A stretch of DNA of 64,000 nt, taken from positions 1-64,000 of the forward strand of contig JAHILF010000005.1 of assembly GCA_018897105.1 (NCBI GenBank). The letters are read 5' to 3'. Under the pieces are notes generated by a model. That model saw only the letters and a program-made list of their open reading frames with translations. It was not told where the DNA came from and searched no databases. How positions within the stretch are numbered: position 1 is the first letter of the stretch; each line of letters starts with the position of its first letter. A program made the translations under genes and the position numbers. This DNA comes from Pseudomonadota bacterium (GTDB taxonomy: Bacteria; Desulfobacterota; Desulfobulbia; Desulfobulbales; SURF-16). Shown here piece by piece: positions 3,182 to 25,638 of this stretch.

Positions 3182-3481
3182 TTTCCCAAAGCCGGGGACA
3201 GAATGATTTTCGCCAAAACCGCGAAAAAAATTCAGTCCCCTCAGTTTGAGGAAAAATTAATCAGTCTCCCTGCCTTTTTTTGCATCCTCCTCACTCATCC
3301 AGGAATGGGTCAGGGGCAAGTCGTTGCGGGTGCCGGCGGAGAAAAGCATCTGGAAGACATGCATATTGCCATGCCAGAATGAGGAGGAGCAACCCACCAG
3401 GTGAACCGCCACATGCGGACAAAGCGTTCGTCAAACATCTGGAGGACTTCATTTCTGTGTTCCTCAAACCGGGTCAGTCAA

Positions 3482-3679
3482 TCACATTTGCTTTATATCG
3501 ATTTCGTTATGAAATTTTCCTTCCACCACTTTAACAACTGCTTGACCGGCAATGACATTTTTCCCGTCAAAGGTCAGGGTCGGATTGCCGTATAGATCCC
3601 AGCCGTCGTTAAGCTTGGCACATACTCTTTTGCAGAATGTTTCATCATCTGGTCCGGTAAGATAGGAGTAGAGCTTCAT
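3482..3679 (-). CDS. DUF1737-like small protein
   Basis: 65 aa; MKLYSYLTGPDDETFCKRVCAKLNDGWDLYGNPTLTFDGKNVIAGQAVVK pattern. Confidence 0.6.
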   Translation of the reverse strand: MKLYSYLTGPDDETFCKRVCAKLNDGWDLYGNPTLTFDGKNVIAGQAVVKVVEGKFHNEIDIKQM

Positions 3680-4668: not shown

Positions 4669-6012
4669 TCATTTTTTGCTGAGCCCATATTTTTTCAGGC
4701 GCCGCCACAGGGTGGTGAGGGGAATGCCGAGAATCTCACTGCTCAGCTTGCGGTTGTTGCCCGTAATATCAAGAACCTTGGAGATATGCTGTTTTTCCAT
4801 GGTTTCCAGGGAGAGCAGGTCCTCGCCCTCGAAGGTGGTAAAAGCCAGTTTTCTGAGATCAGCCGGCAGGTCACGGACCTGGATGCTTTCCCCCTCGGCC
4901 AGCGCCACCGCCCGCTGGATGATGTTTTCCAGTTCGCGGACATTGCCGGGATAATGATAATGCAGAAGGATATCAAGGGTCTGGGGGGAGATCTGCCTGA
5001 TGTCCTTGCTGAAGGCAAGGCCGAATTTCTCGATAAAATGGCTGATCAGCAGCGGGATATCGTCTTTTCTTTCCGTGAGCTTGGGCAGACGGATGGTGAC
5101 CACGTTGAGGCGGTAAAAGAGGTCCTCCCGGAATGAACCCGCCTCGACCTCCTTTTTCAGGTCCTTGTTGGTGGCGGCGATGATGCGGATATCCAGATCA
5201 ATGGCCTTGGTGCCGCCCACCCTGAAAATCTGTCTTTCCTGCAGTACATGCAGCAGTTTGACCTGCATGGACAGGGGCATCTCGCCTATCTCGTCTAAAA
5301 ATACGGTGCCTTCTGAAGCGGTTTCGAGCAGGCCGATTTTGGTGGCGGTGGCGCCGGTAAAGGCGCCTTTCTCATGGCCGAACAGTTCACTGGCGATGAG
5401 TTCTTCGGCAAACCCGCCGCAGTTGAAGGCGATGAAAGCATTTTCTTTTCTGGGACTCAGGGAATGGATGGATCTGGCTGCCATCTGTTTGCCGGTACCG
5501 GTCTCCGCCTGCAGCAGGACATTGCAGTTGACCATGGCCACTTTATTGATCATGGCGAAGACCTCCTGCATGGCCGGGCTGGAACCGACAAAGCCGGAAA
5601 TGGTGCCGCCGTTGCTCAAGGCCTGACGGAGAGCACGGTTTTCCTCAAGCAGTTCGATTTTTTTTCTGGCCGTGTTGGCCAGCAGCCTAATGTCATGACG
5701 CTTGAAGGGCTTGGTGATGTAATGGAAGGCGCCAGCCTTGATGGCATCCACCGCTGTTTCAATTGAGGCGTTGCCGGTTATGATGATCGCCTCCGTATCT
5801 TCAAATCTGCTTTTGACCTGGGTGAGAATTTCCATGCCGTGTATGTCCGGTAGATGCAGATCGATAAACACAATAGGGAAAGTTTGCTGGCCAAGTCTCT
5901 GCAAAAAGGAATGGCCGTCCAGAAAATATTCCACTTCAAATCCTTCTGCGTCAAGAACGCGTTTGATATGGCGGCAGGCCATCTCCTCATCATCAATTAT
6001 GGCGGCTTTCAT
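4669..6012 (-). CDS. Sigma54-dependent response regulator (REC-AAA+-HTH)
   Basis: Canonical REC (IIDDEE, FIDLHLPDIHG, TKPF), GETGTGK-like Walker A, GAFTGA, C-terminal Fis-type HTH. Confidence 0.92.
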   Translation of the reverse strand: MKAAIIDDEEMACRHIKRVLDAEGFEVEYFLDGHSFLQRLGQQTFPIVFIDLHLPDIHGMEILTQVKSRFEDTEAIIITGNASIETAVDAIKAGAFHYITKPFKRHDIRLLANTARKKIELLEENRALRQALSNGGTISGFVGSSPAMQEVFAMINKVAMVNCNVLLQAETGTGKQMAARSIHSLSPRKENAFIAFNCGGFAEELIASELFGHEKGAFTGATATKIGLLETASEGTVFLDEIGEMPLSMQVKLLHVLQERQIFRVGGTKAIDLDIRIIAATNKDLKKEVEAGSFREDLFYRLNVVTIRLPKLTERKDDIPLLISHFIEKFGLAFSKDIRQISPQTLDILLHYHYPGNVRELENIIQRAVALAEGESIQVRDLPADLRKLAFTTFEGEDLLSLETMEKQHISKVLDITGNNRKLSSEILGIPLTTLWRRLKKYGLSKK

Positions 6013-7447
6013 CTTGATTTCCCTGCTGTTTTTCCTGGTTTGCCGCTATGGGCAGATAGATTGTAAATTTTGTCCCGATATTCACTTCACTCTTTACTTC
6101 AACATAGCCCCCATGTTTTTTGATAATACCGTAAACAATGGAAAGGCCAAGGCCGGTGCCGGCACCGACTTCCTTGGTGGTGTAAAAAGGATCGAAAATA
6201 TGGCCGATAATCTCCGGCGGTATGCCCGGTCCCGTATCGATGACGTTTATCTTGAGCAAGTTGTTCGGTGCGAGTCTGGCATTGAGGTAAATGAGCCCCC
6301 CCCCCTGGGGCATCGCCTGGATGGAGTTGACGAACAAGTTGATGAATACCTGCTGCAGTTTCTGCATATCACCCATGACGAGGGGGAGATCCTCGTGGAT
6401 ATAATTTTCAAACCAGATGGCGTTGATCATCAGCTGGTTGGCGATGAGCTTGTGGGAGGCTTCCACTACGTCCTTGATGCGGAGCGGTACGGAGGATGGA
6501 GCTTTGTCCCGGGAAAAATCGAGCAGGTTCTTGACAACCCCGGAGGCCCTCTCCGTCTGGCTGATGATGTCGGCAATGATCTCTTTTGTCTCTGTTTCGG
6601 AAAGGGCACCGTATTCTTCCATCAGGGTATCTGCTGACAGGGAAATGTTGTTAAGGGGGTTGTTTAATTCGTGGGCAATACCGGAGGAGAAGGTGCCGAT
6701 GGCGGCCAGCTTGCGGGATTGCACCAGCTGTTCCTTTCTGGCATCGATCTCGGCGACCATCTTGTTGAAGTTAATAATCAGGACGGAGATCTCATCCTGT
6801 ATTTTAGCGTTATCGGCAATGGGGGTGAATTTGTCATTGGCCACGTCACGTGTAGCCTTCTGGACAAAGGCGATGCGTTTCAATACGTTCCTGACCTGCA
6901 GCTGGAAGATGAGAATAAGGGTAAAGAAAAGGGTGCCCGTGATGCTGACAAATCGGTAAAAGAGCAGTTCGAGGCTGCTGTGCAGGCGGTCATGCTTGCG
7001 TTTGACCAGCTTCTCGGCGAACTCCACCATGTCCCGGCCTGATTCCCTGATCCCCAGGGAGTCTATCTCGGCGGAGTAACTGTATTTCCTGAATATTTCC
7101 TTGTATTGGTAGAAGGTGCCGAGAAAATTATCATATTCCTGCCTGTCCGTAACTTCAAGAATGTCATCCTCCAGGATGGCGATATGTGATTGGATCTTGG
7201 ACAGAAAAACTAAAATGGGGGAGACGTTGTCGGTCCCTATTCCGAAGAGGAAATTTTTCTCATACCGGCGTAACTCCAGTACATCGTCTAAAAAACTATG
7301 AAACTGCTCCAGGGCCATGAGTTTCTTTTTCAGGGAAAATATCTGCCATGAGTAATCAGGCAGCAGCAGGCCGCCAAACACCATAAACAGTATGGTGATA
7401 AAAATGAGCCTTCGTCTGATGGTATGTCTCCCAACGAGACGTTCCAT
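5993..7447 (-). CDS. Membrane sensor histidine kinase
   Basis: N-terminal TM, periplasmic region, HAMP-like region, H-box SSGIAHELNNPLNN, N/G boxes (DTGPGIPPEIIGHIFDPFYTTK, GTGLGLSIVYGI); overlaps the regulator gene. Confidence 0.9.
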   Translation of the reverse strand: MERLVGRHTIRRRLIFITILFMVFGGLLLPDYSWQIFSLKKKLMALEQFHSFLDDVLELRRYEKNFLFGIGTDNVSPILVFLSKIQSHIAILEDDILEVTDRQEYDNFLGTFYQYKEIFRKYSYSAEIDSLGIRESGRDMVEFAEKLVKRKHDRLHSSLELLFYRFVSITGTLFFTLILIFQLQVRNVLKRIAFVQKATRDVANDKFTPIADNAKIQDEISVLIINFNKMVAEIDARKEQLVQSRKLAAIGTFSSGIAHELNNPLNNISLSADTLMEEYGALSETETKEIIADIISQTERASGVVKNLLDFSRDKAPSSVPLRIKDVVEASHKLIANQLMINAIWFENYIHEDLPLVMGDMQKLQQVFINLFVNSIQAMPQGGGLIYLNARLAPNNLLKINVIDTGPGIPPEIIGHIFDPFYTTKEVGAGTGLGLSIVYGIIKKHGGYVEVKSEVNIGTKFTIYLPIAANQEKQQGNQDESRHN

Positions 7448-7694
7448 GTTTTTTCTCCTATCTTACCCATGACGCCTAACGTTTCAACTTGAAATAAGAC
7501 AGATATACCATGTAGCCGGTAATTGCCAACAAGAAACTTCAGAACTCCCGAGGTCGTGACGTAATTCCAATGTTATGCCACCATCCCGGATTCTTGCTTG
7601 TTGCCAGTTTGAGTGCCTAAAATACTTTAAGTACTTTAAGTGCCTTAAATGAATGGTTTTTCTGCTTAGACCGCGCCGCAACTTCAAGTAGTTT

Positions 7695-7737
7695 ATACCC
7701 ACTAGGGGCACAAGATACCCACCACAAGGGCACAAGA
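7695..7737. repeat. Short direct repeat (ATACCCAC-like / GGGCACAAGA units)
   Basis: ATACCCACTAGGGGCACAAGATACCCACCACAAGGGCACAAGA; resembles the right end of the 40734-40884 element. Confidence 0.45.
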
Positions 7738-7948
7738 GCAATTTGCGCACCTTAGGCACTCTTCTCGAACCTCGATTAGGGTATCAACGCAAAATCTACC
7801 GCAATCAGGTTGTCTGAACTTTGTGTCAGGGGAATAAGGAGGCAGGATGGGTCGTCTGCGGGGTTGCCTGTGGCGATGGGACGATGCGGGGACACATCAT
7901 TGCTGGGTTGGACGGCATTCTCCTCGGGCTGATTAGTTATTTGGCTAA

Positions 7949-8395
7949 TTACTTAAGCAGGTCGCCGTTGCCCACTAACTGCAGAATCTTATACGGATCA
8001 CCCTTTTCATTGTAGAGAGTCAAGGCATTGGCTCCGGCCAGGGATACCTTGCCGCAATGGGAGATATAGTCCGTACCGCTTCCCGAGCGGCGCGCCCGAC
8101 GCAGGCAGAAGTTATTATTTTCGTCAATCTTCCAGGTATCTGATGAGCGGACGTTACCGGAGGGAAAGAGGATGGTATATTTGCCGTCACTGGCAAAATA
8201 GATATGACTGCTTTTCGGTATATCGTCCGACGCTGTTATCAGGAAGGTTCTGTCGGAGAGAATTTTTTTCAGCTCAGCGGTGGAAAGATAGCCTGCCTGG
8301 GCGGAAACGTTGGGGGCGGAGAAAAGAAAGGGGACAAACAGCAAGAAAAGAAACAGAATGGATTGTTTCATGATGACTCTCCCGGGCAGACGCAT
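7949..8395 (-). CDS. Hypothetical exported protein
   Basis: Sec-type signal peptide (MKQSILFLFLLFVPFLFSAPNVSAQA); no recognised domain. Confidence 0.6.
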   Translation of the reverse strand: MRLPGRVIMKQSILFLFLLFVPFLFSAPNVSAQAGYLSTAELKKILSDRTFLITASDDIPKSSHIYFASDGKYTILFPSGNVRSSDTWKIDENNNFCLRRARRSGSGTDYISHCGKVSLAGANALTLYNEKGDPYKILQLVGNGDLLK

Positions 8396-8522
8396 TGCTG
8401 GTTGTAAAAAAATCGGTCAAAGGCGGATTGTTTCCTGTGGCTTCCAGGATAAACCCGCCCTTGCACGGGTGTCAAGAGAGAATGAGGGAAAATAGGGGTG
8501 AGGACCATCTGTCCTCCTGCTC

Positions 8523-8978
8523 TTAAGCGAGCATTGCCTTGCGCCAGCCCGCCTCCTTGAGGCGGCTGATTCGGTTGACGGCCCAGGCGTTGATTTCCTG
8601 CAGATACCTTTTGGGGTTCTCGTCTTTCCTGGCAATGATACGCTCCCTTTCACCGGCAATATCCTCTGACTCACCGGGATACATTTCCCGCCAGGTGGCA
8701 TAGCCCTGATCAAAAATAAATTCCGGATTGATCTCCTCGGCTGACAGGGAGAGTCTGGTGAGACCATACATTCTGGCAAGGGTCATGTCATACTCGATGA
8801 TCCAGTCGTTATCCTGAAGCATGGTTTCCCGGTTGATGGGGGTGTCCGCCGAACAGACCGGGCAGAAAAGGCGCTCCAGCACATTGGGATCCATAATATT
8901 GTCGCGCAAATGAAACTGTACCTGTCTGCCGCCGCATTCACATTTTTTCTTCACTTCAATACACATGATTTCCTCCAC
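8523..8978 (-). CDS. Hypothetical protein with Cys pairs
   Basis: ORF with CECGG and CPVC Cys motifs; likely start MCIEVKKKCECGG. Confidence 0.55.
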   Translation of the reverse strand: MEEIMCIEVKKKCECGGRQVQFHLRDNIMDPNVLERLFCPVCSADTPINRETMLQDNDWIIEYDMTLARMYGLTRLSLSAEEINPEFIFDQGYATWREMYPGESEDIAGERERIIARKDENPKRYLQEINAWAVNRISRLKEAGWRKAMLA

Positions 8979-9049
8979 TATATTAATGAGTTGATTTTTT
9001 CAACACCATAGCATTAACGGAGGGAAATGCAAAGAAATAATAATTATTA

Positions 9050-12000
9050 CTAAAAATCTCCCAGGAGTTCCAGCAGATCTTCCGCCCGCAGTTTATGGCT
9101 CATATCGCTGCCTTCAAGGAGGCTGTCCGCCAGTTCGCGTTTGTCATGATGTAATCTGATGATTTTTTCCTCAATGGTGTTTTTGGTCACAAGCCGGTAA
9201 ACAGTCACGGGACGCGTCTGGCCGATGCGATGCGCCCGATCCGATGCCTGATCCTCCACCGCCGGGTTCCACCATGGGTCCATGTGGATAACATAATCGG
9301 CCGCGGTGAGATTGAGCCCCAGGCCGCCTGCCTTGAGGCTGATGAGGAAGAGATCGCCGTCTCCCGCCTGGAACTCAGTCACCTGTTCCTGGCGTTTCAG
9401 CGTTGGAGTGGAGCCGTCAAGATATTTATAGGGGATATGGCGCTCGTCGAGAAAGGCGCGGAGAATGTGCAGGTGCCGGGCAAACTGGCTGAAAACCAGG
9501 GCCTTATGGCGGTTTTCGATAAGATCCGTGATGATGGTGCCGAAAAGCTCGAGTTTGGAGCTTTGAATGGTCGTATCCGGTTGGACAAGCTTGGGATTGC
9601 AGCAGGCCTGCCGCAGTTTCATGATTTCTGCCAGGATCTGCATATGCCGGTGGGAGGGAGAGGCGTCACTGCGTACGATTTTTTCCAGGGCGCGGAAGCG
9701 TAATGCTTCGTAGAAGGCTGTCTCTTCAGGGCTCATATTGACCTGGAGAGTGACTTCTGTCCGCGGCGGCAGTTCCTCCAGGACCTGACTTTTCAAACGT
9801 CGCAGGATGAAGGGCTGGATCAGTTTTTTTAATTTTTTCCGGGCATTCTTGTCCTTGTCTTTTTCAATGGCCAGGGCATAGCGCTGATTGAACTGATCCA
9901 GGGAACCGAGCAGGCCCGGGTTGATGAAGTTGAAAAGATTCCACAGTTCTCCCAGGTGGTTTTCGATGGGGGTGCCGGTGGTGATCATCTTGAAATTGCC
10001 ATCGAGTTCCATGGCTGCCCTTGAGCGCTTGGTGGCAATATTTTTGATGGCCTGGGCCTCGTCCAGCACGATGACCTGCCATTTTCGGGAAGAAAGGAGT
10101 GTGGTTTCCTGTTGCAGAAGACCGTAGCTGCAGATAAGCACGTCAAAAGGCGCAAGAATGTCAAGCAGCTGTTGCCGTTCTTTGCCACCGAAGATCACCG
10201 CCTGCAGGGTGGGAGCGAAACGGAGGATTTCCTCCTGCCAGTTCATGCAGACAGAGGTGGGGGCCACCACCAGGGAAGGGCCCTGGGTCGCCTCCTGCAG
10301 AATGATGCCCAGGCTCTGCACGGTTTTCCCCAGTCCCATATCGTCGGCCAGACAGGCGCCCACACCCCAGTGTTTGAGACGGGCCAGCCATTTGAATCCC
10401 TCAATCTGGTACTCGCGTAGTTCAGCCTGCAGGGTTGTCGGCACGTCACTGTGAAAGGAGCGTGATTCCCGGATGCGCTGCAGCTGCTCCTGCCAATGGC
10501 TGTCGGCGGTCAACTGAACGCCGCTTTCCGTGAAACCTTCCAGGGCGCAGGATGCCAGGGGATGCATCCGCCGTTTCTGGCCAAGGGGTTCGGTAAAGGA
10601 GGTTAATTCATCCAGCTGTTTGCGGAATTCCCGGGACAGGGCCATAAATTCGCCTTTGCCCAGCGGAATGAATCTGCCGGAATTGGCCTGGGTCAGTTCC
10701 AGCAGCGTTTTCATCTCCATCACCTTTTCCTGGTCGATGGTGAGCTGTCCTTCCAGTTCAAACCAGTTCTGTTTCTGTCTGATCTGCACATGGAAATCAT
10801 GAAACGAGGCATGATGCCGGATGGTGAGTTTTTCCCCTTCCGGCCACTCTATGATGACATCATCCCCCAGGTTCTGGATTTCAGAAAGAACCTCAAGGCA
10901 ATCCTGCAGATCTTCGATGAACCATTCGCCGTCCATTCCGCCCAGTCTGGCCAGGGTCGGGCATCTTTCTTCAATCTGCGTGCAGTTCTCTCTCTCCTTG
11001 TCAAGGTTGCGACAGGTTTGCAGGCGTTTGCCGTTGATTTCGGCCATGACGTTCATCGCCCCTTCGCCTGGGTAGAGATAGGGCCCGCCGGTGGCAAAGG
11101 GCTTAACCAGCATGGAGACTCTGAAGCCGTTACCCACCTGCAGCAGTTGCATGATGATCTTGTCCGCCGCAGGTACCTCTTCGATTTCTCTGGAGGTGGC
11201 GCCGATATCAGAGTGAATGGTCAGACAGGAGGAAAGATTGCCCAGGGTTTCAAGGGCCTGTTTTTTAGCGCCTTCCGGAACGATAAGGCCGTCGTCGCCG
11301 ATGATTGCCGCAATTTTGCGGTGTTTTTCGGAGATCTCGATAATCCGGAAGCGGGTGGGGGTTTCCCGTAAGGCCATTACTTTTTCGTCGCCGATGGGTG
11401 AGGAAAATTCCAGCAGCACCTTGTCATCTTTCTGGGTGGCATGCAGTTCCGGTTCCCCTCTGGTGAATTCAACCGGCACTGAGGTGTGTGTGCTGGAAAA
11501 GAGCAGGGGGTGACCGACTAGGGCGGACAGGGTCTCATCCATGTCAAATTCAAAGGATGTTTCATGGCTGAACTCCTTTTTGCGTAATGTTGCCCTGATT
11601 CTCTGGTCCTGCTCTGTGAGGAAAGAGAGATTTTCTCCGGCATACAGACGCTTCAAGGCCACGGAGCGTCCCTGGCTCCATTTGCCGCTGGCGGTAAGCT
11701 TCTGTTCCCTGGGGTAAATGGTAACAAAACCGTCCTTGAAGTCCACCATCCAGACCATTCTGTACTGGAGTTGACCATTCTCTTCATTTTCCAGGCTGAC
11801 GATATTCAGGGCCTTCAGAGCCCGTTGCCACGATTTCTCATGGGGAAGCACGGAGTGCAGAGAGGTGAGTGCCGATTCCCCGCAGATGGAGCGGCTGAAT
11901 TCTTGATACGACTCGATTTCGGTGGCTTGATAGAGCAGGGAAGCATATTCCATGGCCAGCCAGTCGTAGCCGTTTTCTCTGGCCCGGATGTAAAATTCAT

Positions 12001-16696: not shown

Positions 16697-19621
16697 ATGA
16701 GTACTGCCAGGCCCACGGTGTTCATCAGTTACAGCCACCTGGATGAGGAGTGGAAAAATCAGCTTCTCCCGCATCTCAAGGCCTTTGAGCAGCAGGGTGA
16801 TCTGCTGCTCTGGCATGACCGCAGGATCGACACCGGCGCGGACTGGTATCCTGAGATCCAACAGGCGGTGGAGGGGGCTCGGGTGGCGGTCTGCCTCATC
16901 ACCAAAAATTTCCTGGCCTCGGATTTTATTACCAAGGAGGAGGTGCCGGCCCTGCTCAAACGGCGGGAGGCAGAAGACCTGACCATCCTGCCCCTGCTGG
17001 TCTCACCCTGCACCTGGCAGCGTATTCGCTGGCTCAAGGGCATCCAGATGTTTCCCCCGGACAACAAGTGTCTTGCCGCCATAAAAGATGAAACAGAGTG
17101 TGAGCAACTGCTCGTGGATTTTGCGGTCAAGGTTGTGGATCGGGCATTGGCAACGGGCCAGAATCATGAGGTTTCCGTTTTTGAAAATCTGCTGGGTAAC
17201 GACGTTTCGGAAGGGGTGACGGACCGGGCGCTGCCGGGCCTCTTGGGTAAGGATGTTCACGCTTACCAGGATCTCTTGGTCAACATTGACTTTTCGGCAG
17301 AACCACCCAGCCAATCGAGTTTCCCTACCTCGCTCTTAGAATTATTGCTGCCTCCAGTGGAGATCTCCCGTCTGCCCGTGACCGGGGCTGAACTCTTTGG
17401 CCGGGAGGCGGAATTGGAATTGCTGGACAGCGTCTGGGAGCAGGGCAAAAGTAATGTCGTCTGTTTTGTGGCCTGGGGCGGGGTGGGCAAATCCACCCTG
17501 ATCAACAAATGGCTGACGGAGATGGCTGCGGACAGCTATCGCGGTGCTGCCAATGTCTTTGGCTGGTCTTTTTACAGCCAAGGAACCGGCGAACGGGTCA
17601 CCTCGGCGGACCGCTTCATTGCCGATGCCTTGGCCTGGTTCGGCGACCCGGATCCTATGACCGGCTCTCCCTGGGACAAGGGCCAGCGGCTGGCAGGCCT
17701 CATCAAGCAGCAGCGGACGCTGCTGGTGCTTGACGGCCTGGAGCCACTGCAGGCCGAGCATGATTTTGACAAGGGCCGCATCAAGGACCCCGGCCTGGCG
17801 GCCCTGGTTGCGGAACTGGCCAGGAATAATCCCGGCCTCTGCCTCATCACCAGCCGGGAAGAGGTGGCCGATCTCCGTCGTTTCCCGCAAACTGTTCAGG
17901 CACGAAACCTGGAGCAGATTTCCGCCGCAGCGGGCCGGGCTCTGCTGCGGGTTGGCGGGGTGCAGGGCAAGGACCTGGAGCTGGAGGAGGCTTCGAGAGA
18001 ATTCGGCAACCATGCCCTGGCCGTTAAGCTCCTGGCCGCCTATCTCCATGAGATCCCCGGCCACCATATCAAAGAGGCGGCCGACATCCCTGACCTGGAA
18101 ATCCCCGAGGAGCATGGTCGCCAACCCCGGCGGGTCATGGCTGCCCTGGTCGGTCTTTTAGGGGATTCACCGGAGGTCGAGTACCTGCGGATTCTTGGCC
18201 TCTTTGACCGCCCGGCGGACAAAGAGGCCCTGGCCGCGCTGCTCACCCCGCCTGCCATCCCGGATCTCACCGGTCGCATCATGGCCGTTAAGGAGGAAGA
18301 CCGCCATGAATGCCTCACTCGCCTACGGCGCCTGGGTCTCCTTGCCCCGGCAAGCAGCCAACGACCCGGTGATCTGGACTGCCACCCCCTGGTGCGGGAG
18401 CATTTTTGTGACCTTCTTCGGGAGCAATTCCCCGCAGCCTGGCAGCAGGGCAACCTACGACTCTATGAGTATTATAAAAGTGTTGCCAAGGAATACCCGG
18501 AAACCATCGAGGAGATGACCCCTCTCTTTTACGCCTGCGCCCATGGTTGCCGGGCTGGTCGCCAGCAGGAGGCGTTAGATAAGGTTTATTGGAAACGAAT
18601 TAGTAGAAAGCAGGAAGCTTACATTAATCATAAACTCGGCGCTTTAGGCTCTGATTTGGCTGCCCTTGCTAATTTTTTTGAGTTACTGTGGGAACGGCCC
18701 ATTGCGGGGCTAACCGAGAAGGGTTGGTTTTTTCTCTTAGGTTGTGCAGGTTTCAACCTTCGAGCCTTAGGCCAGCTGAGCGAGGCCTCTAGGCCAATGG
18801 AAGCTAGTCTGGATGCTGCTGTGGTAGGGAAAGACTGGGAAAACGCCGCCATAGCTGCCGCCAACCTTAGCGAACTCTGTCTTGCATTAGGCAAGGTGGA
18901 CCAGGCTATGAAGTATGGGGAGCGATCGGTGGAATTGGCCGACTGGAGCGGTGATGTTTTCCAGCGCTTGGCCAGACGCACCACCCATGCATCTTCCCTC
19001 CATCAGGCTGGCCAATTAGCTGTGGCAGAGGAATTATTCCACCAAGCTGAGGCCATACATCGGGAACGCCAACCCCTGTATCCCTTTCTCAACTCCATGC
19101 CAGGCTTCTTATACTGCGACCTACTTCTCAATCTACATAAGCCGACCGAGGCTTTGGAACGAGCTGAGAAAGCATTGGGGGAGAGCAAAACGCATGGAGT
19201 CCTTCGTGATATCGGCCTGGATTACCTCACCCTAGGTCGAGCTTGCTTTTGGCTGGGTGATTCAGATACTGCTGCCACTCACCTGGACCGTGCTATGGAC
19301 TTCCTGCGCAAGGCAAATGAACAGGAGTTGCTGGTTCGCGGCCTCCTAGCCCAGGCCGCCTTCTGGCGGGAGCAAGGGCAGTTCCATGCCGCCCGCCGGG
19401 ACTTGGATGAGGTTCTGGAGATCGTCGAGCGGTGCGGCATGCGGCTCTTCCTCACCGACTATCATCTGGAAAGCTGCCGCCTGCTGCTGGCTGAAAACGA
19501 CCTGCCCTCCGCCCGCGGTCACCTGGGCCTGGCCAAAAAACTGGTCGAGGAAACCGGCTACCACCGTCGTGACCGGGAGGTAGAGGAACTTGAAAAGCTG
19601 TTGGCCGATGTCAAACGATGA
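16697..19621 (+). CDS. TIR-STAND (NB-ARC-like)-TPR protein
   Basis: TIR: PTVFISYSHLDEEW...LITKNFLASDFITKEEVPALL; NB-ARC: GREAELELLD, AWGGVGKSTLINKWL (Walker A), TLLVLDGLEPL (Walker B), LCLITSREEV, GNHALAVKLL; C-terminal TPR-like helices. Start ATG 16697 after GGAAAGAG. Confidence 0.9.
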   Translation: MSTARPTVFISYSHLDEEWKNQLLPHLKAFEQQGDLLLWHDRRIDTGADWYPEIQQAVEGARVAVCLITKNFLASDFITKEEVPALLKRREAEDLTILPLLVSPCTWQRIRWLKGIQMFPPDNKCLAAIKDETECEQLLVDFAVKVVDRALATGQNHEVSVFENLLGNDVSEGVTDRALPGLLGKDVHAYQDLLVNIDFSAEPPSQSSFPTSLLELLLPPVEISRLPVTGAELFGREAELELLDSVWEQGKSNVVCFVAWGGVGKSTLINKWLTEMAADSYRGAANVFGWSFYSQGTGERVTSADRFIADALAWFGDPDPMTGSPWDKGQRLAGLIKQQRTLLVLDGLEPLQAEHDFDKGRIKDPGLAALVAELARNNPGLCLITSREEVADLRRFPQTVQARNLEQISAAAGRALLRVGGVQGKDLELEEASREFGNHALAVKLLAAYLHEIPGHHIKEAADIPDLEIPEEHGRQPRRVMAALVGLLGDSPEVEYLRILGLFDRPADKEALAALLTPPAIPDLTGRIMAVKEEDRHECLTRLRRLGLLAPASSQRPGDLDCHPLVREHFCDLLREQFPAAWQQGNLRLYEYYKSVAKEYPETIEEMTPLFYACAHGCRAGRQQEALDKVYWKRISRKQEAYINHKLGALGSDLAALANFFELLWERPIAGLTEKGWFFLLGCAGFNLRALGQLSEASRPMEASLDAAVVGKDWENAAIAAANLSELCLALGKVDQAMKYGERSVELADWSGDVFQRLARRTTHASSLHQAGQLAVAEELFHQAEAIHRERQPLYPFLNSMPGFLYCDLLLNLHKPTEALERAEKALGESKTHGVLRDIGLDYLTLGRACFWLGDSDTAATHLDRAMDFLRKANEQELLVRGLLAQAAFWREQGQFHAARRDLDEVLEIVERCGMRLFLTDYHLESCRLLLAENDLPSARGHLGLAKKLVEETGYHRRDREVEELEKLLADVKR

Positions 19622-19693
19622 AATCAGTCGTTATTTGACGAAGACAATACGAGAATATCCCATCATCACACCCCAAGTATGGAGGATCCGGAA

Positions 19694-22600
19694 ATGATCA
19701 AGCTCATCGTTGAAGGCAAACCGCATGACACCACAACAACAATTCCTGATGATCTGCGGGATCTTCTGGTCGGCGAGCGCTGCGAGCTGGTTGATTTTGA
19801 CCTCGATACCAGAAGTCGCGGTGTGGAAGAGGCTCCACCTCCAATTGAAATCAAGGCCAATGAAGACGACCTGTTGGAACTGGAGCTGGAGGGCGGTGCA
19901 CGGATCTGGATGAGCGTGGCTGAATACCGTGACCACATCGCCGCCCGCTCAATGCGCGGCCCGCAGGAAAAGGGGACGGTCCGGATCAATGCCAGCCTGC
20001 CGCAAATGACCGAGGAGCGCGGGATCTTGCAGTGGGTTGTCAAGAGGCTGCGTTTCCTGGGTTTTGATGTGGCCGAGGGTGCGGCCGAAAAACTGGCCGA
20101 ACGGATCGACACCAGAAAAGGCCTGGAGGGACTCTATAGCTGTTCCATCGACAAGGAGAAACTGGAGCTGTACGAGCACCCGGACTTTCCGAGCGGGGCT
20201 GATCCGTTCCTGGTCTTTATCCACGGCACCATGTCCAGCACGGAAGGCAGTTTCGGCGGATTGTGGAGCGAGCAGCCCCAGGTACGCCGGCGGCTGGCCG
20301 AACATTATGACGGCCGGACCTACGCCTTTGAGCATAAGACCTTTTCCGAAAGCCCCATTGTCAACGCCCTGGCCTTGGCCAAGGCCCTGCCTGACGGAGC
20401 GCGCCTTCACTTGGTGAGCCACTCCCGGGGGGGCATGATCGGCGAACTCCTGTGCCGAGGCGGCAGGTTATTGACAGATGGGGCCACAGCGCTCTTTGAT
20501 GATACTGACTTTAAACTGTTCAAGGCCGCTGACCAGGCCGTGCCGCGTAGCGCCCTGCGGGAACTGGAGGCGGTGCTGCGGCAGAAACGGTTTACCGTTG
20601 AACGGTTCGTGCGGGTGGCCTGCCCGGCCCGGGGCACAACCCTGGCGTCAAAGCGGCTTGACCGCTATCTCTCACTGTTGAACCTGGGGCTCTCATCCCT
20701 GGACAAGAGCGGTTGGGCAGGGGATATCTTGTGGCTGGTGGGGGCAATTATCAAAGAACGCACCGACCCCCGCGTCATGCCGGGTCTGGAGGCGATGATG
20801 CCCGAGTCCACCACTGTCAAACTGTTGAACCGGTCCGATGTGACGGTTACCGGAGCGCTGCGGGTCATTGCCGGAGATTACGACGGCGGCAGCATACTCG
20901 GCTGGGTGGCCAATTGGGCAACGGAAGGATTTTTCGGCTCCGAGAACGACACGGTGATCAACACCCCGTCCATGTATGGCGGCGCTCTCCGGCAGGAAAA
21001 CCTTGGCTGGTATTACTTTGCCCAGGGCAGTAATGTTTGGCATTTCAGCTATTTCAGAGAGCAGATCACAGCTGGACTTCTGGCCGACGGTCTGCTCCAG
21101 GATGGGACGGAGAGGGCCGGGTTCCTGCCCATCTCTCAGGCCCCGCATCGGCACGACCCCATCGGCCGGGGCGTTGCTCTGGATTTCGCCGTTGAAGGGT
21201 GGGGCGCTCCCCTGGGGTGCAAAGCACCGTCAGCCAACGGCAGAAAACCGCTTGTGCTTCTGGTGCCGGGGATCATGGGGAGTCACCTGCAGGTCGCGGA
21301 CAGGAGGGTCTGGCTGGATTTTCTGGCCATTGCCCGCGGCAAATTGAAAGAACTCGACATTGATGCGTCGGGGGTGACCACGGACGGCGCCATGAAGCTG
21401 TCCTATGGAGACTTTGGTTCCTTTCTCTCAGCAAAAAATGAGGTCATTTACTTCCCCTATGACTGGCGGCGGCCGCTACGGGAACAGGGTACGGAATTTG
21501 CCCGTTTCATGGGCCAGGTGCTCGACGCGGCAGCGGCAAACGGCAGGCCTGTGCGAATCGTGGCCCACTCCATGGGTGGACTCCTGGTGCGCATGGCAGC
21601 GGTTCTCTCCAATCCCGAGCGGAACGGCAACCGCTGGTGGGAACGTTTCAGCGCGGCCGGCACAACCAACCGACTGGTCATGGCCGGTACACCCAATAAA
21701 GGCTCGTGGACCGTGCCCTACGCTCTCACTGGACGTGATTCCATTGTCAAGGTGCTGGCCGCCGTGGATTTGAGTCATGATAGAGAGGAGATCCTGCGAT
21801 GTATTTCCGGCTTTACCGGATTTCTGGAGATGCTTCCAGACGACGGGGATGGCCACTGCTTCGACATTGATAGCTGGGAGAAGTGGCAGAAGGCGGACGG
21901 GGAGGAATGGCCCCTTCCCGATGCCGCTTTACTCGCTGCCTGCCGTGAAAACCGCAGGCTTCTTGACCGATTTGATTTTACCGGAGATGCCGGAATAATC
22001 CGTTACGTAGCCGGCTGTGAGGATGAAACTCCGTCCGGGGTCCGGATCGTTAACGCGAAGGGCAGGAATGAACTCATTTTTGACCGCTCCACTAAGGGGG
22101 ACGGCCGGGTCCTCTGGGCCACGGGTATCCCTAAAGGAATCAAGACATGGTACGTGAATGCCGCCCACGGCGATATTTTGAACCAGGAAGATGCCTTCAA
22201 TGGCCTGTCTGAGATCATCGAATACGGTGAGACCAGCCTGCTGCCCACTGAACCGCCGGCCCGGCGTGCGCTTGCGGCTGGGGAAGAGATTATGGTTGAC
22301 CGGGGGTTGCCGATGTATCCGGATCAGAACATGCTTATCCGTGCCGCTTTGGGGGGGAGGATTCTTCCACCCAGGGATCGGAGGACCGAGAAATTTCCTG
22401 CATTCAAGGTCGTGGTCTGCCATGGGGATTTACTGGCAGCTAGGAATCCGGTGGCTGTTGGGCATTATTTCGGTGATACCATCAACGGCAGCGAGGCGGT
22501 CCTGGACCGGCGGCTCGACGGGCTGCTCACCCGGCGTTATCAACTCGGAATTTATACCGGTGCCGAGGGGAGCGTCAATGTCTTTGTTCATACGGAAAAC

Positions 22601-25123
22601 AAGAAAAAATATACCGCCATCATTATCGGTTTGGGTCAGGTCGGCGAGCTGACCCAAGCCCGACTTGCCAACTGCTTTGCCAGGGCGATCCTGGAATTTG
22701 CCACCTCGCCTGCTGTAGATGCCATTGGGCCACAGGGGGTTGAACTTTCCATCAGCACCCTGCTCATCGGCAGCGGTTCAGGCTGGGGTCTCGGGGTTCA
22801 GGAAAGCGTTCGTGGCTTGGTTGACGGTGCCCGGCGCGCCAATATGAAACTTGCAGAATTGGACGGCGCACCGATTCGGCTGCGTGAGTTGGAACTCCTT
22901 GAGATTTTTGAGGATAGAGCGCTCATCGCCCTGCGCGCTGTTCGCAGCCTTGCCACCCTCGGGGGGCTCGCAGGGGTCGAGTACGAGGCCTCCCTGCGCT
23001 GTGGAACCGGCGGACTTCAGCGGGCGGTCTGCGAGGATGGCGGCGACTGGTGGCAGCGACTCAAGGTGGAGATGAATGACAAGGACGAGTTGAAGTTTAC
23101 CTCCCTGACCGGCCTGGCCCGCATCGAGGAAAGGGGGCAGCCTACCCAGCTGGCCCTGGTGGATCGTCTGGTGAAGAATGCCGTAACCAATTCGTCGATC
23201 TCAACCCGGGAGATGAACGCCATTTACAACCTTTTGTTCCCCAACTCATTGAAAATGAGTGCCCCGGACCAGGGCGATCTGCTGCTGATGCTCGACCCCA
23301 AAACCGCAGGTTATCCATGGGAGATGATGTATGTCGGAGAAGGGACGCAGAAGGAGCCCCTGGCCTTACGGGCCGGTTTGATCCGGCAGCTCAGTCTGCC
23401 TGAATTCCGGGAACGGCCGGTGTACAGCTCACGGCAACATGCCCTGGTCATTGCCGATCCAGACCTGAAGTCAAGCAAATTTCCCGAGCTTTCCGGCGCC
23501 CTGCAGGAAGGGAAAGCGGTGGTCAGGATTCTTGAGCAGAAGGGATTTCAGGTGGAAAGGCAGTTGCAAAGCGACCCGCTTTCGATTGCCGGCGCCCTTT
23601 TCGCCGGCGACTACCGTATTCTCCATCTGGCCGGACACGGGGTTTTTGAGTATCCTATTACCAGTAAAGGCAGGGATGGCACCAGCAGAACCAGCCTTGT
23701 CACCGGCATGGTTCTGGAATGGCCGACAAATGCAGAAACCGAAAAGGATGATGCCCGGCAGGACCCGGTCCTGTTGACCGCCGTGGAAGTTCGTCAGATG
23801 ATCGCCGTGCCGGAGTTGGTCTTTATCAACTGCTGTTTTCTGGGCCAGATGGAGGGCCTTGACAAGTGGTTTGCCAAACGGCATCTCTTTGCCGCCAGCC
23901 TTGCTGCTAAATTTATCAGCATGGGGGTGCGAGCCGTGGTGGCCGCTGGCTGGGCAGTGAACGACAGCGCAGCCGAAATATTCGCCACTTCCTTTTACAA
24001 TGCCATGTTCGATGGTCACACCTTTGGCGATGCGGTTCGCGCCGCCCGTTGCAAGGCCCATGAGCAGGTGGGGAGTTGCAATACCTGGGCCGCATACCAG
24101 TGTTATGGCGATCCTGGTTTTCGTTTCCGGGAGAACCATGCGGCACGTCCGAGAAAGTTTTTCCTTGCCCCCCGAGAGGTGGTGTGCGAGTTGCGCGCCT
24201 TGGGCGAGAAGAAAAGGGATGCGCGGGGCAACCGGCTGAGCTCCGCTGACCTGACACGAGATCTGGAGCAGCTTGAACGTCTTATTCCACATGAATGGAT
24301 GATACAAAATGGCGAGATCCGGGCCGCCCTAGCCGCTGTTTATGCCGAATTGGGAGATAACGACCGGGCCATCGAACACTACGAGGCCGCTGAGATATGC
24401 CGGGACGGCGGCTGTACGGTTCGAGATCTGAACCAGTTGTCCAACCTGCGGGTCCGGCGGGCGCAAGATTATCCGCCTGAGCAGGCGGATAAGGAAATAC
24501 TTAGGGAGATAGAAATTCTCACCAGAAGGGCGGGCGAATTGGGTGAGACCCCCGATATCTGCACCATAACCGGCAGTGCGGTAAAGCGGCTGTTGCTGAA
24601 GGTGGCCGACAAGAAACCGACAAAGAAGAAAGAACTGGCGGACCTCATCCGTTTGATGGAGGAATGGTATGAGAAGGCAGTGAAAAGTGACGGTGAATTG
24701 GATCCCTATGCCGCCATGAACTCAATCTGTGCCGCCATCATCGAGGAGTGCTGGGCGGTATCGCCATCGCCTAACCAGGAAAAATTGGCAAAGATCCGCA
24801 ACCTCCTTGATCAAGCGACTATGGCCGGGCAGCGCCTGGAAGAAAAGGACCCGCGTTTCTGGAACGGGGTTCATGCCATCGACGCCGATCTCTACCGTTT
24901 TATTCTGACCCGGATGAAGGGAGGATTGGAGATCGATGGTGTTCCGGATACAAAGGAATTAAATGAGCGGTATAACAATCTGGCGGACAAATACGGTACC
25001 CCCCGGAAGATGGGTTCGGTTGCGGATCAGATCAAATTTGTCGCTCGTTTCCTGCCGGAGAAGGAGATGAAAGAGGTTAAGCACGACCTTGAGAAATTGG
25101 CAGAAAATTTGAGAAAGGGATAG
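19694..25123 (+). CDS. Giant alpha/beta-hydrolase (two elbows) - CHAT protease protein
   Basis: FVFIHGTMSS, HLVSHSRGGM, VLLVPGIMGSHL, RIVAHSMGGLL; CHAT region with ILHLAGHGVFEY (His) and ELVFINCCFLGQ (Cys); start ATG 19694 after GGAGG (ORF extends to 19679). Confidence 0.88.
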   Translation: MIKLIVEGKPHDTTTTIPDDLRDLLVGERCELVDFDLDTRSRGVEEAPPPIEIKANEDDLLELELEGGARIWMSVAEYRDHIAARSMRGPQEKGTVRINASLPQMTEERGILQWVVKRLRFLGFDVAEGAAEKLAERIDTRKGLEGLYSCSIDKEKLELYEHPDFPSGADPFLVFIHGTMSSTEGSFGGLWSEQPQVRRRLAEHYDGRTYAFEHKTFSESPIVNALALAKALPDGARLHLVSHSRGGMIGELLCRGGRLLTDGATALFDDTDFKLFKAADQAVPRSALRELEAVLRQKRFTVERFVRVACPARGTTLASKRLDRYLSLLNLGLSSLDKSGWAGDILWLVGAIIKERTDPRVMPGLEAMMPESTTVKLLNRSDVTVTGALRVIAGDYDGGSILGWVANWATEGFFGSENDTVINTPSMYGGALRQENLGWYYFAQGSNVWHFSYFREQITAGLLADGLLQDGTERAGFLPISQAPHRHDPIGRGVALDFAVEGWGAPLGCKAPSANGRKPLVLLVPGIMGSHLQVADRRVWLDFLAIARGKLKELDIDASGVTTDGAMKLSYGDFGSFLSAKNEVIYFPYDWRRPLREQGTEFARFMGQVLDAAAANGRPVRIVAHSMGGLLVRMAAVLSNPERNGNRWWERFSAAGTTNRLVMAGTPNKGSWTVPYALTGRDSIVKVLAAVDLSHDREEILRCISGFTGFLEMLPDDGDGHCFDIDSWEKWQKADGEEWPLPDAALLAACRENRRLLDRFDFTGDAGIIRYVAGCEDETPSGVRIVNAKGRNELIFDRSTKGDGRVLWATGIPKGIKTWYVNAAHGDILNQEDAFNGLSEIIEYGETSLLPTEPPARRALAAGEEIMVDRGLPMYPDQNMLIRAALGGRILPPRDRRTEKFPAFKVVVCHGDLLAARNPVAVGHYFGDTINGSEAVLDRRLDGLLTRRYQLGIYTGAEGSVNVFVHTENKKKYTAIIIGLGQVGELTQARLANCFARAILEFATSPAVDAIGPQGVELSISTLLIGSGSGWGLGVQESVRGLVDGARRANMKLAELDGAPIRLRELELLEIFEDRALIALRAVRSLATLGGLAGVEYEASLRCGTGGLQRAVCEDGGDWWQRLKVEMNDKDELKFTSLTGLARIEERGQPTQLALVDRLVKNAVTNSSISTREMNAIYNLLFPNSLKMSAPDQGDLLLMLDPKTAGYPWEMMYVGEGTQKEPLALRAGLIRQLSLPEFRERPVYSSRQHALVIADPDLKSSKFPELSGALQEGKAVVRILEQKGFQVERQLQSDPLSIAGALFAGDYRILHLAGHGVFEYPITSKGRDGTSRTSLVTGMVLEWPTNAETEKDDARQDPVLLTAVEVRQMIAVPELVFINCCFLGQMEGLDKWFAKRHLFAASLAAKFISMGVRAVVAAGWAVNDSAAEIFATSFYNAMFDGHTFGDAVRAARCKAHEQVGSCNTWAAYQCYGDPGFRFRENHAARPRKFFLAPREVVCELRALGEKKRDARGNRLSSADLTRDLEQLERLIPHEWMIQNGEIRAALAAVYAELGDNDRAIEHYEAAEICRDGGCTVRDLNQLSNLRVRRAQDYPPEQADKEILREIEILTRRAGELGETPDICTITGSAVKRLLLKVADKKPTKKKELADLIRLMEEWYEKAVKSDGELDPYAAMNSICAAIIEECWAVSPSPNQEKLAKIRNLLDQATMAGQRLEEKDPRFWNGVHAIDADLYRFILTRMKGGLEIDGVPDTKELNERYNNLADKYGTPRKMGSVADQIKFVARFLPEKEMKEVKHDLEKLAENLRKG

Positions 25124-25222
25124 AAAGGAGGTCTGTTTTTTTATACTCTTTATCAGGCCAAGTCATTGTCTGGTAAAAAGATTGCCGCGAAATCCGGATT
25201 TTTTGAGCAAAAAGGAGAGACC

Positions 25223-25540
25223 ATGAGCACGCCTGTGAAAAAGATCGATACCCCTTTCGGGGAGTATGCGCCGCGGGTTGCCAGCCACGACGAACTGGAG
25301 CGCGCGGCAGCGGTCATGGGGGACGCGGTGGAGGCAATCGCCCGGGTCAACCATGACAGGTGGGCGGCGGAGAGGATTTTCCAGGGGTGGCGCTACGGGG
25401 AAGAGCGGGATGATGCCCGGAAGCTGCATCCGGATCTCGTCCCGTATGAGCTCCTCTCCGAGGCGGAAAAACGAATCGACGTGGAGGGCGCCAAAGCGAT
25501 CATTGCCGAACTGATCAGGCTTGGAATTCTTCGGCAATGA
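25223..25540 (+). CDS. RyR domain-containing small protein
   Basis: IARVNHDRWAAERIFQGWRYGEERDDARKLHPDLVPYELLSEAEKRIDVEGAKAIIAELIRLG matches the RyR repeat pattern (W..R...GW.YG..RDD..K.HP.LVPY..L...EK..D); SD AAAGGAGA upstream of ATG 25223. Confidence 0.88.
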   Translation: MSTPVKKIDTPFGEYAPRVASHDELERAAAVMGDAVEAIARVNHDRWAAERIFQGWRYGEERDDARKLHPDLVPYELLSEAEKRIDVEGAKAIIAELIRLGILRQ

Positions 25541-25561
25541 TTGCTTGAACAGAATAGACAT

Positions 25562-25597
25562 AAAAAGGGAACTGACTGTCCGGTCAGTTCCCTTTTT
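25562..25597. terminator. Bidirectional intrinsic terminator closing the TIR/CHAT/RyR module
   Basis: AAAAAGGGAACTGACtgtccGGTCAGTTCCCTTTTT hairpin with A/T tracts between convergent genes. Confidence 0.85.
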
Positions 25598-25638
25598 ATG
25601 TTATGGCCAGGTTGGCGGAAATCAGGGAATCTCAGATT

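Follow-up and report, generated by a model that had tools for sequence, protein, structure and literature searches.

The third and last gene of a TIR operon encodes a stand-alone RyR-domain protein that is probably a receptor or a brake of a TIR-made alarm, as its residues and genomic neighbors suggest. The operon lies in the window, by which we mean the whole 64,000-nucleotide stretch of DNA that was analyzed. We give about even odds (a probability of roughly 0.5) to the reading that this protein would be the TIR-signal-binding subunit, a receptor or co-sensor working with TPR-S, a domain of the effector encoded just upstream. The features concerned are as follows:

16697..19621, + strand: TIR-NACHT-TPR protein, 974 aa (Pfam TIR_2, TPR_12 and, below cut-off, NACHT; PADLOC ThsB)
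19608..25209, + strand: exchangeable effector cassette, in place of which the same-genus genome G090 has a metallophosphatase gene and a 645-aa CHAT gene (DNA identity on the flanks, gene content)
19679..25123, + strand: effector, 1814 aa, with two alpha/beta-hydrolase regions (DUF7379, LCAT), an M17_N-like region, CHAT and a C-terminal TPR-S domain at residues 1562-1682 (Pfam)
24362..24724, + strand: region of the effector gene coding for TPR-S, the proposed partner of RyR (Pfam TPR-S)
25207..25222, + strand: Shine-Dalgarno region of the RyR gene (AAAAGGAGAGACC), also the right junction of the cassette swap relative to G090 (blastn identity is back at 25210)
25223..25540, + strand: RyR gene, stand-alone RyR-domain protein, 105 aa (Pfam RyR, pocket alignment, structural model and fold matches)
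25558..25601, no strand: intrinsic terminator hairpin closing the operon, between convergent genes (-31.9 kcal/mol, z -9.4)

The RyR protein and its operon

A profile search places Pfam RyR (PF02026) at residues 33-102 of the 105-aa protein (E 5.7e-19, 68.6 bits against a cut-off of 27.4), and the genome has no other RyR match. Its AlphaFold2 model (pLDDT 91.5) is closest in fold to the Bacteroides thetaiotaomicron RyR protein 6UAG/3NRT, which forms dimers and sits in a different genomic context (Z 11.4/11.3), and also matches R12 of human RyR3 in structures with adenine nucleotides (Z up to 9.4) as well as phage RyR proteins in a library of viral structures. With a score above the curated cut-off and the R12 fold, the protein belongs to the RyR family, and it is not one of the phage evasion proteins. 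Its likeness to animal R12 extends to the ligand-binding residues reported in PMC13232231, whereas in animals R12 occurs as a tandem repeat that forms part of a calcium channel. The reading frame is protein-coding: it opens with ATG just downstream of the ribosome-binding site, and its dN/dS is 0.13-0.16 against two relatives of the same order (the value of 0.56 against the nearest relative has few changes behind it). An antisense ORF at 25163-25561 was set aside because the plus-strand frame is the one under selection.

Gaps of 57 bp (TIR/effector) and 99 bp (effector/RyR) separate the three genes. Since the RyR gene starts 99 bp past the effector and is followed directly by a near-perfect, bidirectional terminator, we consider TIR-NACHT-TPR, effector and RyR to form one operon, and the description in an earlier note of a single-RyR protein as third gene of a TIR operon is borne out. 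The operon is chromosomal, with syntenic housekeeping genes on both flanks, for which reason an origin of the RyR gene as part of a prophage was rejected.

The first protein carries TIR_2 (1.5e-14), TPR_12 (1.6e-12) and NACHT (2e-5, under its cut-off), with a P-loop GVGKST at residue 262. Its TIR domain aligns to plant TIR NADases in the PDB, and residue 81/82 is its candidate catalytic glutamate. It is presumed to be both infection sensor and NADase signal maker. Identity to the G090 protein drops from 88-89% in TIR and NACHT to 66% in the C-terminal TPR part, as expected if the TPR part is a fast-changing sensor end. The PADLOC model for ThsB matches this protein (4.5e-21), but no model for ThsA (the SIR2/SLOG effector of type I Thoeris) hits the other operon proteins. 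Neither the RyR protein nor the CHAT protein of the window is matched by any PADLOC model.

What the earlier note had called the CHAT protein does contain CHAT (2.1e-29), a caspase-like fold, but it is a much larger effector that also includes DUF7379 (1.7e-30) and TPR-S (PF20308; E 2.4e-6, 28.5 bits against a cut-off of 27.6, rising to 32 bits in the genome search), just as the TIR gene is more fully TIR-NACHT-TPR. The CHAT catalytic residues are presumably His1320 and Cys1385/1386. A PDB sequence search returned no relative for the CHAT region or for the G090 metallophosphatase. Elsewhere in the window genome there are further domains of these kinds (12 TIR_2 and four CHAT matches in all), among them, on contig C164, a protein of about 1275 aa in which TIR and CHAT are fused.

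A predicted pocket for TIR-made signals

Phage RyR proteins bind 2'cADPR and 3'cADPR, which are immune signals made by TIR domains (PMC13232231, a May 2026 preprint). One of them, RyDEP, hydrolyzes both through H75 and D117, with W78 bracing the adenine and H100 contacting the phosphates (PMC13232231). Since this work shows both binding and cleavage, prokaryotic RyR domains can no longer be called poorly characterized, as the earlier note had it. In the window protein, H44, W47, H69 and D86 are found at +0/+3/+25/+42, exactly the spacing of H75, W78, H100 and D117 in the alignment with RyDEP. H44 is invariant in the RyR domains collected and the other three positions are conserved in most of them. 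These four residues, which contact cADPR in RyDEP, lend support to the idea of an NAD-derived ligand sensor and favor a receptor, as does the fold shared with an adenine-nucleotide binder.

The predicted pocket also holds the full RyDEP catalytic H/D dyad, and hydrolysis or sequestration of the signal would fit as well. RyR could then be encoded by the host to keep basal TIR signal low, either soaking it up as a sponge or destroying it as a glycosidase, and so set the activation threshold and allow recovery, in a role comparable to that of a ring nuclease in type III CRISPR. We regard such a brake as less likely than a receptor but as its main rival; this is what the RyDEP group, the only characterized relatives, does for phages. 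Residue conservation is no predictor of hydrolysis, because seven of the eight phage homologs tested did not hydrolyze the signals despite conservation, leaving RyDEP as the one enzyme in a group otherwise made up of several sponges (PMC13232231). The RyR protein of G090 has Q at the position of H69, which also speaks against a brake.

The window protein resembles RyDEP and the phage sponges in family, in the equal spacing of the four ligand and catalytic residues and in being small and free-standing. Unlike them, it is encoded in a bacterial chromosomal TIR operon, would presumably serve defense rather than evasion with an activity predicted from its sequence, and belongs to a clade that is always near TPR-S or CHAT genes.

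Partners, fusions and exchange of the effector

A lack of conserved linkage had been set beforehand as a finding that would refute the proposal, and the linkage proved to be conserved. Among 44 RyR loci in 41 genomes from several phyla (160 Mb), TIR is kept across phyla, with a TIR_2 match within 10 kb at 15 loci against 0.9 expected and within 5 kb at 12 loci against 0.45 expected, counts that measure association and not function because the genomes are non-independent and defense genes cluster. TPR-S is the firmer partner with the tighter linkage: this 160 Mb of sequence contains 12 strong TPR-S domains, and nine have a RyR no more than 5 kb away. Both associations favor a receptor, while some loci count against it: G079 and L009 have neither TIR nor DUF4062 nearby, and L012, L013 and L119 have neither TIR nor TPR-S nearby. 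The intact RyR/TPR-S/TIR cluster of L004 has a further RyR copy beside it that is degenerate, carrying two in-frame stops (3270-3527; G572:C41:20240-20509). Between RyR and TIR in G009 lies a protein with a below-cut-off match to the 23S rRNA intervening-sequence protein family (L032 6572-7510, - strand).

The 29 loci of 44 that have no TIR within 10 kb would suit another reading, in which RyR is a passenger in a defense island or senses a general metabolite (ATP, ADPR) unrelated to TIR; the titles of the PDB matches give ATP, ADP and AMP-PCP as ligands of human R12. Its position in the same operon, the fusion and splitting of RyR and TPR-S, and its decay upon loss of the operon make this improbable.

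RyR, TPR-S and a guanylate-cyclase-like domain share one chain in L007 (Chloroflexi) and in L062, L063 and L064 (Desulfobacterota), in that order from the N terminus, and a TIR gene adjoins these fusions wherever the contig continues. In independently sampled Acidobacteriota the same parts are split, a TPR-S-cyclase gene adjoining two of the three stand-alone RyR genes whose surroundings were read (overlapping in L120, convergent in L121). It is mainly because these two domains form one chain in some genomes and come from two genes in others, in Rosetta-stone fashion, that we think the window RyR may bind the TPR-S region of the effector. The fusion to TPR-S and an output domain also supports the suggestion of an adaptor. 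Fusions to a kinase and to TrkA_N put RyR where sensor domains usually sit, and together with its place N-terminal to TPR-S and cyclase this arrangement would point to a receptor and away from a brake.

The kinase case is a Pirellulaceae protein with a C-terminal RyR domain (L014 4466-5809, + strand). Six further loci (L015, L016, L018, L074, L119 and L124) encode membrane-type proteins with tandem C-terminal RyR domains, with TrkA_N detected in L015; these look like RyR-ligand-gated ion channels or transporters and are reminiscent of the animal ryanodine receptor.

Stand-alone RyR genes have various neighbors, namely TPR-S-patatin in G009, hydrolase-TPR-S in L004, hydrolase-TPR-S-TIR in L005, and metallophosphatase plus CHAT in four Desulfobacterota (G090, G079, G096, G161) and one planctomycete. 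One RyR family thus accompanies CHAT, patatin, hydrolase, cyclase and metallophosphatase-CHAT effectors, which favors a receptor. A point against is that TPR-S in the 645-aa CHAT proteins is found by Pfam hits at threshold only, in L009 and G161, and the call was left resting on these because profile comparison of their C terminus with TPR-S was weak, aligning only an ExxG...KR motif. DUF4062, a TIR-like NADase in Swarozyc (PMC13174449), stands upstream in place of TIR near metallophosphatase-CHAT-RyR in two of these relatives, G161 and G096. The likeness to DUF4062 systems ends at the window operon, which has a true TIR domain, and the Swarozyc paper (PMC13174449) makes no mention of RyR or CHAT. 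In G096 the DUF4062 gene is present as two ORF fragments (L033 11587-12230, - strand), possibly a pseudogene or an assembly error.

The comparison with G090 is at the same chromosomal site, where blastn aligns the DNA up to 19607 at 86% identity and again from 25210 at 92% identity but finds no alignment across the middle; the right junction falls in the RyR ribosome-binding site. The encoded TIR-NACHT-TPR and RyR proteins are 77% and 83% identical to those of the window. Since the flanks align and the middle is swapped, we consider the effector an exchangeable cassette and TIR and RyR the fixed parts. Polarized RyR substitutions number three on the window branch against six, with no speed-up on the window branch, as if RyR handled the ligand and not the effector. 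Retention through the swap fits a receptor, but a retained partner could equally be a ligand-handling enzyme, as a brake would be. In two other same-genus genomes the site is empty (G016) or has lost TIR and the CHAT effector, leaving a frameshifted 3' half of RyR (G074); RyR is therefore not maintained without its operon, again in line with a receptor.

This decay once the effector is gone, and the small size of the gene and its place last in an operon with predicted cell-damaging enzymes, would also suit a proteic antitoxin that shuts off the CHAT or hydrolase effector by direct binding. Five loci, however, carry relatives of the effector (hydrolase-CHAT-TPR-S, 54% and 33-36% identical) with no RyR nearby, and the obligate pairing of effector and antitoxin that defines toxin-antitoxin systems is thus absent. 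The 54% relative, in L080, adjoins a TIR gene, and one of the others is a paralog in the window genome itself (L075, G000:C52:14000-33000; 5529-11141, - strand), 1870 aa long and 33% identical over its length. This paralog adjoins a 673-aa TPR-S protein and a TIR fragment. Because the CHAT family of the window also occurs without RyR, a simple antitoxin is very doubtful, and the suggestion of one in the earlier note is weakened; the same RyR family serves unrelated effectors, and an antitoxin would not be expected to conserve a ligand pocket. The same five loci show that the long effector does not always need RyR, be it as antitoxin or as receptor. That effectors of this family can do without RyR, even beside a TIR gene, weighs against a receptor and suits a brake.

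A proposed signaling route and its relation to known systems

If RyR is a receptor, the TPR end of the TIR-NACHT-TPR protein would sense invasion and NACHT would oligomerize, upon which TIR, going by its family and conserved glutamate, would turn NAD+ into a cyclic-ADPR-type nucleotide. RyR, associated with the C-terminal TPR-S domain of the effector as the fusions and splits suggest, would bind this nucleotide in the H44/W47/H69/D86 pocket recognized from the alignment. The CHAT protease and hydrolases would thereby be licensed, the cell damaged and the infection aborted.

Burroughs and Aravind are said to have predicted in 2020 that TPR-S is a scaffold recognizing NAD+-derived signals. The window effector is like the TPR-S effector systems in carrying TPR-S and adjoining TIR, and unlike them in that a separate RyR domain accompanies its TPR-S. 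Type IV Thoeris combines TIR with a caspase-like protease activated by N7-cADPR (as summarized in PMC12847820), and the window likewise has a TIR signal maker and a caspase-fold protease in one operon, with TIR_2 and CHAT both above their cut-offs. In contrast, its TIR is fused to NACHT-TPR, its CHAT protease is fused to two hydrolases and TPR-S, and it has the extra RyR gene. The operon may work in the manner of type IV Thoeris and other TIR-signal systems, but assigning it to type IV needs the identity of the signal. For RyR in host TIR operons our literature search found PMC13232231 only, and no description of the RyR/TPR-S pairing in such operons; Yirmiya et al. 2025 (bioRxiv), a systematic study of TIR systems that may describe operons of this kind, lay outside its scope. 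The eLife 2020 conflict-systems paper and the NAD-ADPr review make no mention of RyR.

A broader proposal, which we hold only tentatively, is that RyR, together with TPR-S, is the receptor subunit dedicated to a cyclic-ADPR signal that TIR makes, in a widespread, unnamed class of immune operons with interchangeable effectors; RyDEP and the sponges, and perhaps animal R12, would then descend from such sensors or share ancestry with them. Binding of TIR-made signals by RyR has only recently been shown, so far on the phage side. In the window locus and its relatives the same predicted pocket belongs to the host, whose operons combine it with TIR signal makers and with effectors of the CHAT, patatin, hydrolase or cyclase kind. 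A host-side RyR would offer a testable origin for the phage sponges and a probable binding partner in TPR-S, and may link bacterial immunity to the long-debated cADPR sensitivity of animal ryanodine receptors.
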